In this document: positions 610 to 7,071 of the stretch, piece by piece
Position numbering within the stretch: position 1 is the first letter of the stretch
Layout of the letters: each line of letters opens with the position of its first letter
Assembly (NCBI GenBank): GCA_017474385.1
Contig: JAFVHU010000008.1
Location: 1 to 37,525 of the forward strand
Direction: 5' to 3'
Length of the DNA: 37,525 nucleotides
From: Afipia sp.
GTDB taxonomy: Bacteria; Pseudomonadota; Alphaproteobacteria; Rhizobiales; Xanthobacteraceae
Translations under genes and position numbers: made by a program
Notes under the pieces: generated by a model
Told to the model about the DNA's origin: nothing
The model's database searches: none
Seen by the model: only the letters and a program-made list of their open reading frames with translations

Positions 610-2349
610 TTATGCTGCTGCAACTGCGAAATCGGCGACCAAATCCGACAGCATTTCGGCTTTTTCGACCGTATAAACGTGCAGCGGCTCGACCCGGCCG
701 CGAATGGGGACCTCGATCTGCGGCAAATTGGTCGCAGGGAGGTTCGCCGTTTTCAGGACATCCTCGGAGATCACGACCTCGCAGGACAGGCCCTTGGTCA
801 TGTCCTGCAGGCGCGCGGCGACATTCACGGAATCGCCGAGGGCGGTGAAGACGGTGTGTTCCTCAGAACCGATGTCGCCGATGATGACCTCGCCGCCATG
901 AATGCCGACCCCGAACCGCAGCGGTTCCGGCACGTCGTCGCCGAGAAATTCATTCAGTGCATCGACGTGGATCGCGATCCGCGATGCGGCATCGATCGCC
1001 TGCCGGCAGGCCGTTTGCGGATTGGTGGAGAGGCCGAACAGGGCCAGTTGTCCGTCGCCGACGAACTGGTTTGGCTGTCCGCCGCATTCGACCACGGCCT
1101 GCGAGACAGCCGTCAGGAAGCGGTTGATGATGAAAACGGTATCGAACGGCAGAAGCTGCTCGGCGAGCTTGGTCGATCCGCGCATGTCCACGAACATGCT
1201 GACGACGTAACGCTCCCGGCCGGGAAGCGCCGGCTTGATGGTTGCCGCCGACGAGGCAGTCGTATGCGCGGGAAAGATCTGGAAGAACGCGACATCGGTC
1301 CGGGGGCGTAGCTGGCAGGCGAGGCGAATGGCGGGATCGCCGCCGGCGCCGACCCTTTCGAGCACGAAGGTTTCGCGGTTCGATGGTTCGGGCAGCGCGC
1401 TGCAATCGCCGATGACACGGATGCGGCAGGTCGAGCAGCGCGCCCGTCCGCCGCAGACACTGGAATGGGGAATGTTGAAGCGGGTGCTGGCCTCCAGAAC
1501 GCTCAGGCCGACCGGGACGCGAACCGTCTTGCCGTTGCCATAGGACAGCTTGACGAGACCCCGGCGGCGCTCCATCAGCGCCCGGACCCCGCGGGCGACA
1601 AGGGCGAGGCCCATCAGGCCGAAATACCCATAGAGCGTAAAGGAGCTGATCTGTTCGAGCGCGGCCTGTTCGGCGCCGGTTCCGACCTTGTCACGCGACA
1701 GGTTTTCCGCACGCCATTCGGGTGCGGTGCTCGCGAACTGGACTGCGCGGCCGCCCTGATAGAGCCCGAGCATGGACAGTGTTGGGAGAATGACCGCGAG
1801 CGCGAGCAGCAGGGACGATATTTTCCTGAAGTAAGGCTTCGTCCGGAGCCAGAAATAAATTCCGATACAGCCATGGACCCACGACACCAGCAGCACGGCG
1901 TACATCGACCATTGCATCTCCGGGCGATACACCCAGTAGGCAAAGAAGACCTGCGGGTAATCCTTTTCATGGCCAAGCAAGGATGCAGCCAGGCGGACGC
2001 CGATCACATGGCTGATGATGAAAACCGGGATGCTGAGGCCGAGCACGAGTTGCGTCAATTCCATGCCGGTCCAGCGAAAGTGCCGCCGCGCATAGAGCGC
2101 CCAGATTCCCAGGCCCAGATGTGTCAGGACGGAGCCGTAGAGCACGATGGTCATCGGCCAGCTCTTCCAGAACACCGCATGATAGTAGAGGCCATCGTCC
2201 ATCGCACCGAGCGAGACGTTGCCGAGCGCATGGTTGGCAAAATGGCTGATGACATACGCAAACAGGACAAGGCCAGTGATCAGCCGCACCTGTCGAATTC
2301 CGATGCCGCGAATGAACCGGCGAAGGGGTGATACGGCGGTCTCTGCCAT
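610..2349 (-). CDS. Redox-type adenylate cyclase: b-haem-like membrane anchor + [2Fe-2S] ferredoxin + class III cyclase
   Basis: This 579-residue protein is predicted to make cAMP from ATP. Residues ~20-255 hold about six hydrophobic segments resembling the cytochrome b subunit of succinate dehydrogenase/fumarate reductase. Histidines inside or beside them (H36, H40, H77, H114, H159) are candidate haem ligands. Residues ~265-355 form a plant-type ferredoxin domain with C299-x5-C305-x2-C308 and C345. Residues ~380-560 are the class III cyclase domain: metal-binding D388 (FVDMRGST) and D432 (FVGDG), and the [11 protein letters not shown] motif giving D506, N509 and R513. The usual adenine-contacting lysine before the second metal Asp is Q428 here, so substrate specificity is inferred from D506 and family context. 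Sinorhizobium CyaC is a related quinone-responsive di-haem cyclase; the extra ferredoxin module is the notable difference. ATG at 2349 fits the start of homology, with only a weak ribosome-binding site. Confidence 0.88.
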
Positions 2350-4561: not shown

Positions 4562-5605
4562 TCAGGATTTCTGATCGTCCCCACCGGCACGGCGCAGCAG
4601 GTCCTTGGCGAGATCTGACAGCACCGGACGAGGCAGCGCCTCGAACGGCAGCGGCCGTGTCACATCGATGGCGGCGAGGCCAAGCCGCGCCGTGAGCAAT
4701 CCGTTGAGCAGGCCTTCGCCGAGCTTCGCCGACAGCTTCGCGGTAATGCCATGGCCCAGCATCTGCTGGATCAGGCTGTCGCTGGCGGCCATGCCGCCGG
4801 TCAGCGCCAGATGCGCAATCACATGACGCATCAGGCGGATCATGCCGAGCGTGCCAGGCCGCCCGCCATAGAGCCGCGCCAGTTGCCGCACCAGACGCAG
4901 CGCCGCGGCGAACACGAACAGCATGTCGATCACGGCGCCGGGGCTGACAGCCGTGACGAGCGAGACGCGTTGTGCGGCGCTCGAGACCAGCCGCCGCGCT
5001 TCCTGATCGAGCGGCGTCATCAGTTCGCGTTCGGCAAGCCGCATCATGTCGGCGCCGTCGATGATGTCTCGGCCATGTTCTTCCAGCGCGGCGCGGGCGC
5101 GGGCCAGCCGCGGATTGTCATGGGCGATCTTGAGCAGGTCGCGGACGATCGCATCGCTTTCCTTGCGGTCGTCGCTCAGAAGCACTGCGTTGGCGCGCGC
5201 GTGCAGCTTCTCGATGGTTTCCAGCCGCGCCAGACTAAAAGCCTCGCGCGCGATGATGACCACTAGCGCCACGACGGCGAGGATCGCGAACACAAGTCCG
5301 ATGTAGCCAAGGCTGGTGCTGCGGTTGAACAGGTCCTCGACGAGATTGGAGATGCCAAGCCCGAGCCCGAGCACGACCAGACCGGCGAGCGCGGTCCAGA
5401 ACACGCCTGCCCAGCCGAAGCCCTTGCGGGCGGGGACAACCGGCTCGTCGATGGGGACCGGAAGCAGGGCGGGATCGGCTTCCGGCGTGATGTGGACCTT
5501 GCCGCGCGCAGGACGCGAGGGATCGTCCTCCGCATCCATCAGGATGACGCGGGGATCGTCGAGCTTGAACGCTGCCGGCTTGCGGTGATGCGGCTTGTCG
5601 CTCAT
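4562..5605 (-). CDS. ycjF: YcjF-family (TIGR01620/DUF697) inner-membrane protein
   Basis: This 347-residue protein is the usual partner of YcjX. It has a polar, proline-rich N-terminus (1-62), two membrane helices (~64-88 and ~98-119), then a helical cytoplasmic region. The C-terminal DUF697 part includes a conserved hydrophobic stretch (VTAVSPGAVIDMLFVFAAAL) and a Gly-rich end. In Escherichia coli ycjX-ycjF is a stress-responsive operon (phage-shock/heat-shock regulons), and the biochemical role is unknown. Here the start codon overlaps the ycjX stop by 4 nt (ATGA, 5602-5605), which shows translational coupling in the same order. Family assignment is firm; function remains open. Confidence 0.88.
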   Translation of the reverse strand: MSDKPHHRKPAAFKLDDPRVILMDAEDDPSRPARGKVHITPEADPALLPVPIDEPVVPARKGFGWAGVFWTALAGLVVLGLGLGISNLVEDLFNRSTSLGYIGLVFAILAVVALVVIIAREAFSLARLETIEKLHARANAVLLSDDRKESDAIVRDLLKIAHDNPRLARARAALEEHGRDIIDGADMMRLAERELMTPLDQEARRLVSSAAQRVSLVTAVSPGAVIDMLFVFAAALRLVRQLARLYGGRPGTLGMIRLMRHVIAHLALTGGMAASDSLIQQMLGHGITAKLSAKLGEGLLNGLLTARLGLAAIDVTRPLPFEALPRPVLSDLAKDLLRRAGGDDQKS

Positions 5606-7071
5606 TGCAGCTTGTCTCCGATCAGAAACTGAAGCGCACGGTCGAGACGGATATGGGGCAGCGCAGGCTCTTCGCCACCCTCGCGGACCAGCAAAGGCGG
5701 ACGAAATCGCAGAAACCGGAAGTCCGTCTGGTTGGCTGCTGTGTTGGACAGGCCACGGAACGTGCCATCGCCGCTGAACAGGTCGTCGAGCCTGGCTGGA
5801 AGATCGCCGGGGAAGGTCGCCACTTCCGTCTCGCCGTCGAAAACTTCGTCGCCGGACATCTCGCCTTCCTCAGGCGTGCCGAGGATCGAGGGCAGTTTCT
5901 CGCGGCCCTGCTGCACCATGGCTTCGCGTGTTGCGCGCACGGCGGCGAGCGCGACCACGTCCACGGACGCGCCGGCATACTCGGCGCGCGACGCGGCGCG
6001 TTCGACCATGCGTTTCAGGATTGCTTCGAGGCGGTCGTGACTGGTGTGGTGCAGGTGATCGGCCTTGGTGGCCGCGAACAGGATCTTGTCGATGCGCGGC
6101 CGGAACAGCGAACTGACGAACGTACTGCGGCCGATATTGAAGCAGTCGAGAATGCCGGACAGCGTGCCTTCGAGATCTTTCAGCGCCTCGGGGCCGGCGT
6201 TGAACGCAGCGAGCGCATCGACCAGCACGATCTGGCGGTCGAGCCGCGTGAAGTGGTCGCGGAAGAACGGCCGCACCACCACGTCCTTGTAGGCCTCATA
6301 GCGCCGCCGCATCATCGCCCACAGCGAGCCGTCCGGCGCGGTGCCATCATGCGGCACGTCCAGCGGCGCAAAGGTCAGCGCAGGCGATCCAGCGAGATTG
6401 CCGGGCATCAGGAAGCGCCCGGGCGGCAGCAGGCTCATGGCGAAGCGTTCATCGCGGCAGGCGCGCAGATAATCGGTGAACAGTTTGGCGGCGGTGAGTG
6501 TCGCCTGTTCGTCCTCGCGCTCTTTTGGCTCGAGGTTGGCGAGATGCGCATGCCATTGCTTGGCCAGCCGCACGCGAGGTTCGCGGCGCGACAGTGCGAG
6601 ACTTTCCGCCGACCATTGCTCGTAGCTCTTGGTCAGCAATGGCAGGTCGAGCAGCCACTCGCCGGGATAGTCCACGAGGTCGAGTGTCAGCGTGCGCGTC
6701 GCCGCGTTCTGCCGCTGGTACTCGATCACAAGACGCAGTTCGCTGATGTCCGTGGTCGAGTGCGGCCAGCGCCGCTCGTTGATCAGGGTGCGAACGTGTC
6801 CCTCATAAGCAAAGCGCGGCACGGCGTCGTCCGGTTGCGGCTCAAGCCGGGCGCGGGCGATGCGCCCCGTCGCAAGCGACTCGAACACCGGAAAGCGCCC
6901 GCCGCGCAGCAGGCCATGAACGAGCGCGGTGATGAAGACGGTCTTGCCGGCGCGTGACAGGCCTGTGACGCCAAGCCGCACGGTGGGATTGAACAGGCTT
7001 TCGCCGTAATCGATCAGAGACCGGATGGAAAGGCGGGTGTCTTCGACAATGTCCGAAAAGCTGGGTGCCAT
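5602..7071 (-). CDS. ycjX: YcjX-family P-loop NTPase (DUF463)
   Basis: This 489-residue protein is a probable GTP/ATP-binding stress protein of the YcjX family. A Walker A motif GLSRAGKT lies at 37-44, preceded by the family-typical N-terminus (DTRLSIRSLIDYGESLF...TVRLGVTG). A conserved LDLVDYPGEWLLDLPLL segment (~130-146) provides the Walker B-like Asp and DxPG-type switch. Later conserved parts include VLVDALAAFNAG and LFAATKADHLH, a nucleotide-specificity-like TKAD motif. It is the first gene of a two-gene operon with ycjF. The ATG at 7071 lacks a strong Shine-Dalgarno, but homology begins close to it. No stress promoter could be recognised in the 190 bp upstream. Confidence 0.9.
   Translation of the reverse strand: MAPSFSDIVEDTRLSIRSLIDYGESLFNPTVRLGVTGLSRAGKTVFITALVHGLLRGGRFPVFESLATGRIARARLEPQPDDAVPRFAYEGHVRTLINERRWPHSTTDISELRLVIEYQRQNAATRTLTLDLVDYPGEWLLDLPLLTKSYEQWSAESLALSRREPRVRLAKQWHAHLANLEPKEREDEQATLTAAKLFTDYLRACRDERFAMSLLPPGRFLMPGNLAGSPALTFAPLDVPHDGTAPDGSLWAMMRRRYEAYKDVVVRPFFRDHFTRLDRQIVLVDALAAFNAGPEALKDLEGTLSGILDCFNIGRSTFVSSLFRPRIDKILFAATKADHLHHTSHDRLEAILKRMVERAASRAEYAGASVDVVALAAVRATREAMVQQGREKLPSILGTPEEGEMSGDEVFDGETEVATFPGDLPARLDDLFSGDGTFRGLSNTAANQTDFRFLRFRPPLLVREGGEEPALPHIRLDRALQFLIGDKLQ

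Follow-up and report, generated by a model that had tools for sequence, protein, structure and literature searches.

A contig of 37,525 nucleotides from Afipia sp. (JAFVHU010000008.1, assembly GCA_017474385.1; hereafter the window) carries an open reading frame with an ATG start (610..2349, minus strand) that encodes a protein of 579 amino acids. This protein very probably is a quinone sensor of the CyaC type, in which a di-haem anchor, a [2Fe-2S] ferredoxin domain and a homodimeric class III cyclase are joined in one chain, such that redox state would set the cyclic nucleotide output. The combination of haem anchor, ferredoxin and cyclase is already described; the Afipia protein adds an active-site variant, with Gln428 replacing the lysine that contacts adenine.

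Domain order and predicted cofactor ligands

Two domains are recognized by Pfam above its curated cut-offs, Fer2 at residues 271-349 (E 3.6e-7; 1303..1539, minus strand) and Guanylate_cyc at residues 382-548 (E 6.4e-12; 706..1206, minus strand). Six hydrophobic regions precede the ferredoxin domain in the hydropathy profile. In sequence searches of the PDB, the C-terminal part of the protein finds class III cyclases (best 2w01, E 2e-20), while the middle part finds the adrenodoxin homologue 2mjd (E 3e-8), then putidaredoxins and other ferredoxins, 1put being among the matches. The domain reading of the preliminary description, an anchor, a ferredoxin and a cyclase in one protein, is thus borne out. 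Moreover, nucleotide differences between the gene and four Afipia orthologues fall mostly on third codon positions (in the comparison with L001, 36 at the first, 23 at the second and 130 at the third), and the reading frame is therefore a maintained gene. As plain codon counts, which are not dN/dS values, synonymous differences exceed nonsynonymous ones 2.0- to 2.5-fold (121:48, 164:68, 174:78 and 174:88). The sequence marks the protein as a genuine membrane enzyme, with a haem-type anchor, an iron-sulphur domain and a domain that makes cyclic nucleotides.

Conservation was read mainly from an alignment of 98 full-length sequences, including that of the window, drawn from related loci and from homologues in the order. 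From 108 loci, six paralogues of the window's own genome (L034-L039, no match at 1e-40) and the partial genes L009, L024, L029 and L030 were left out. The related-loci search gave 32 loci, mostly Afipia or Bradyrhizobium; from the order search, 29 loci and 40 fetched regions were used, and residue 428 was not read in others (e.g., G009, G049, G052, G114, G123 and G287). Smaller alignments comprised the window and related loci (A1, 30 sequences; A3, 29 sequences; L012 (X) omitted from both, L006 and L009 from A1) or 64 anchors out of the 98 rows (A2).

The anchor occupies residues 1-263 (1561..2349, minus strand) and is of the fumarate reductase/succinate dehydrogenase cytochrome b type, in keeping with the six-helix anchor of the CyaC type. 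An anchor model places long helices at residues 18-44, 64-86, 96-125, 143-170, 172-206 and 225-262. Helices 1 to 4 each carry one predicted haem ligand present in all 98 rows: His36 (2242..2244), His77 (2119..2121), His114 (2008..2010) and His159 (1873..1875, all on the minus strand). This is the pattern of four precisely spaced intramembrane histidines that marks the CyaC type. The same four are also kept without exception in another 27 homologues, taken from the family of genome G187. Four histidines among the 11 columns that are invariant in the 64 anchors would be expected by chance with p ~1.3e-4 (hypergeometric, eight histidines in 249 residues). The preliminary description counted five histidines in or near the membrane; the anchor has eight, and these four are the invariant ones. 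His40, considered as a likely ligand, was rejected, being kept in 95 of the 98 rows and in 24 of the 27 further homologues. Since it is not invariant and the other four are, the likely haem ligands number four, not five. Among the rest, His57 is conserved only in the 38 close rows, and His90 and His127 are not present in all of these.

Anchor identity to the cytochrome b subunits of Wolinella succinogenes and Desulfovibrio gigas fumarate reductase and Chloroflexus aurantiacus succinate dehydrogenase is 12-15%, and in contrast to these subunits the Afipia anchor is fused to a ferredoxin and a cyclase. A profile search of the PDB with the anchor returned two matches, neither significant, and the 50 entries listed in the full-length fold searches were all taken up by the cyclase domain. 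TIGR02046, searched for as a b558 reference, had no match in the window's genome or in 200 genomes of the phylum (E 0.001 and 1e-10). In the ferredoxin domain, which is adrenodoxin/putidaredoxin-like and lies between membrane and catalytic domain, the cluster cysteines Cys299, Cys305, Cys308 and Cys345 follow the spacing C-x5-C-x2-C-x36-C (1315..1455, minus strand). Each is present in 98 of 98 rows, so that the set given as complete in the preliminary description is confirmed.

The catalytic domain and Gln428

The metal-binding pair named in the preliminary description, Asp388 and Asp432 (1054..1188, minus strand), is aspartate in 96 and 98 of the 98 rows, respectively. Thr502, Asn509 and Arg513 (811..846, minus strand) correspond by published numbering to Thr484, Asn491 and Arg495 of Sinorhizobium meliloti CyaC (PMC10463352), and they are kept in 38/38 close rows, where Asp388 is found in 37 and Asp432 in all. 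The class III domain thus has its aspartate pair, threonine, asparagine and arginine; what it does not have is the adenine-contacting lysine of a canonical ATP-specific class III adenylate cyclase. At that place, Lys410 of S. meliloti CyaC (PMC10463352), stands Gln428 (1066..1068, minus strand), with the same spacing to Thr502, Asn509 and Arg513 as in CyaC. The glutamine pointed out in the preliminary description is therefore indeed at the lysine position and noncanonical.

All 38 rows of at least 57% identity have Gln428. In the 60 rows below 57%, lysine prevails (50 rows), the others being glutamine (3; L049, L090 and L107), alanine (3), asparagine (2), serine (1) and glycine (1). In a tree built without column 428, 39 glutamine rows form one clade (SH-aLRT, Shimodaira-Hasegawa-like approximate likelihood ratio test, 97), and L090 and L107 are placed elsewhere; this was a quick tree, with SH-aLRT support only and several long branches. 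Under the rule of the script used, the 39 clade members are set apart from the 50 lysine rows at 25 positions of the catalytic region, counting 428 itself. Examples are Asn427 replacing Asp, Ser392 replacing Phe and Gln515 replacing Glu, although ordinary divergence would also give such columns. In the literature searched, no report was found of glutamine at the adenine-lysine position of class III cyclases, as far as the available texts go.

The window's genome (84% complete) holds one full-length copy of this cyclase and eight class III cyclase matches. A motif search of its other cyclases found Asn-Gln at the adenine-lysine place in L142, lysine in L144, L147 and L148, and asparagine in L146; L143 and L149 could not be placed. 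L142 (G000:C71:182212-183606) lies close to L126, a CRP-like gene. In looking for a CRP-like cAMP receptor, as in the S. meliloti CyaC-CycR-Clr complex, 16 matches to PF00027 (cNMP-binding domain) were found in this genome; L126 is one of them and carries a candidate cAMP-binding motif.

Known systems, proposed mechanism and alternatives

Rhodopseudomonas palustris belongs to the same bacterial family as Afipia. Its protein Q132R4 represents cluster (1) of the class IIIb adenylate cyclases with six transmembrane helices, whose described architecture is that of the Afipia protein (PMC4821796). As summarized there in 2016, this isolated cluster comprises 30 class IIIb enzymes of alpha- and beta-proteobacteria. 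Their ferredoxin lies between the membrane and the catalytic domain, and their anchor, with four intramembrane histidines and two predicted haems, resembles cytochrome b of succinate dehydrogenase/fumarate reductase. The account of cluster (1), compared by description only, makes no mention of a substitution of the adenine lysine. For S. meliloti CyaC (SMc01818), a membrane domain of six helices with two haems B has been reported, which ubiquinone can oxidize or reduce, thereby affecting activity (PMC10463352, 2023). The legend to Fig. 6 of that paper, citing Wissig 2019, marks a [2Fe-2S] cluster beside the two haems; anchor, cluster and class III cyclase are thus features in which CyaC resembles the Afipia protein. 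With a ferredoxin in the cluster (1) proteins and a [2Fe-2S] cluster in the CyaC scheme, the second, possibly undescribed redox layer that the preliminary description saw in the Afipia ferredoxin belongs to the known design. A screen for its numbering (Lys410/Thr484) among the 27 homologues in the family of G187 did not identify CyaC itself; the 74-residue spacing occurs in every one of these, and the lysine in 26.

What this analysis establishes for the Afipia protein is its domain order, its invariant ligands and the predicted fold of its anchor. In the proposed mechanism, the anchor would bind two b haems, one through His36 and His114 in helices 1 and 3 and the other through His77 and His159 in helices 2 and 4, like di-haem fumarate reductase cytochrome b. 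Such a pairing is the arrangement in the di-haem cytochromes of Wolinella and Bacillus. Electrons would be exchanged among three partners, namely ubiquinone, the haems and the [2Fe-2S] cluster, the last in the ferredoxin domain next to the membrane. The resulting redox change would control the homodimeric cyclase, whose activity would be higher with an oxidized quinone pool; the sign of this response is taken from S. meliloti CyaC. We infer such a "direct wire", which would link quinone to the cyclase by way of haem and Fe-S, together with cofactor binding by the Afipia protein, a place for the cluster in the electron path and mainly cAMP as the product; haem B, quinone response and cAMP output are those reported for the homologue (PMC10463352). 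Of the reading suggested at the outset, the union of a di-haem-b-like anchor with ferredoxin and cyclase is supported, and a quinone-pool sensor with cyclic nucleotide output is probable; the protein probably reports the state of the respiratory chain.

Parts of this protein recur in other combinations. In three reading frames (L111:2565-4232, L110:2347-3945 and L113:2308-3852), anchor and Fer2 are followed by a C-terminal region of ~170 amino acids that replaces the cyclase and has no Pfam match at E 0.01, an arrangement suggesting that the redox module also acts on outputs other than a cyclase. Three more (L109:2425-3576, L102:647-1849 and L104:837-2330) have anchor and Fer2 and no recognized output domain. 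Conversely, L121:1897-3435, L119:1755-3089 and L120:1990-3318 combine Fer2 with a class III cyclase and lack the anchor. Pfam, run on L119 and L121, finds a C-terminal Rieske domain in both, which in L121 carries CPH...CRWHH. A search with L121 matches 2 of 289 genomes of the class at E 1e-80, and one match extends into the Rieske part. Nothing relevant was found in the literature on a Rieske domain joined to a cyclase, as judged by title and the start of the abstract, and a search on Fer2 together with Guanylate_cyc found no paper.

These proteins bear on the question of whether the ferredoxin lies in the haem electron path at all. Adrenodoxins and putidaredoxins receive electrons from soluble reductases, and the domain is nearest in the PDB to just these proteins. 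A soluble NAD(P)H-ferredoxin reductase might accordingly feed it, such that the protein would integrate quinone and cytosolic redox signals. We consider this unlikely, though it gains from the anchor-free ferredoxin-cyclases; against it, anchor and ferredoxin occur together in all six of the cyclase-less frames, as expected if both form one redox unit. That the protein is instead a degenerate paralogue, its anchor no longer binding haem or its cyclase dead, is highly improbable. The lost lysine would fit such decay, whereas the 38 close rows retain every predicted cofactor ligand and, with one exception at Asp388, the catalytic residues listed above, and the excess of synonymous codon differences holds in all four comparisons.

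A more specific alternative leaves the sensor as it is and changes its product: Gln428 with Thr502 might allow cGMP, another cyclic nucleotide, or cAMP and cGMP together. Fixation of the glutamine in a well-supported clade, and the further clade-specific columns, would agree with this reading, as would the cyclase Ma1120, where changing the same lysine to glutamate lowered adenylate cyclase and raised guanylate cyclase activity in assays at pH 7.5 and 9.0 (PMC4215837). However, the Afipia residue is glutamine, not glutamate. Moreover, at pH 8 the kcat/Km of Ma1120 for GTP was lower in K101E (0.05) than in the wild type (0.11), K101E/D157T still preferred ATP (3.16 versus 0.23), and ATP remained the preferred substrate wherever Lys-to-Glu was combined with Thr or Gly at the second position, according to the results available from that study (PMC4215837). 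The unchanged Thr502, Asn509 and Arg513 of the close rows likewise speak against a different or relaxed product, which appears quite unlikely. The mycobacterial cyclase Rv0386, with glutamine at this place, is presumably mainly an adenylate cyclase, although no statement confirming this was found in the literature searched. Because the Ma1120 mutants shift activities yet prefer ATP, Gln428 is reasonably suited to testing nucleotide choice but is not evidence of a switch. The broader proposal, that Nitrobacteraceae have a CyaC-type sensor in which the Lys-to-Gln change and the other clade changes alter the output to a nucleotide other than cAMP, or to cAMP plus cGMP, is improbable; if true, quinone redox state would be reported in Nitrobacteraceae by another messenger than in Sinorhizobium.

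Spread and genomic neighbourhood

The spread of such cyclases, which the preliminary description had proposed to map, was searched at three levels, with some matches covering only part of the query. Genomes with a match numbered 82 out of 297 in the order (E 1e-40), 76 out of 198 sampled in the window's family (E 1e-60; 83 matches listed) and 74 out of 199 in the family to which G187 belongs (E 1e-60). From these 74 genomes, 27 new loci were examined; the 30 best homologues in that family are 37-42% identical to the query. The CyaC-type family is well kept in Nitrobacteraceae.

Upstream of the gene lies a divergent PMT_2 glycosyltransferase gene and downstream a cold-shock gene. In tblastn comparisons among 101 homologue loci, many of which have short flanks, relatives of these occur in 33 and 27 loci, respectively. 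In S. meliloti, by contrast, cyaC is preceded by cycR (TetR). Among the adjoining genes of the window, Pfam finds no TetR gene, so that the cycR neighbour of the CyaC-CycR-Clr complex is absent here; none was seen by eye upstream of the homologues from the family of G187 among the reading frames printed for 9 of the 27. Farther along the window (4562-7071), a DUF697 (TIGR01620) gene and a YcjX (DUF463) gene overlap at their ends; among the 101 loci searched, relatives of these two occur in 23 and 22, respectively.

Collectively, these data add many members to the described design of a quinone-sensing cyclase. Within it, Gln428 provides one testable difference between the Nitrobacteraceae clade and the characterized S. 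meliloti enzyme.
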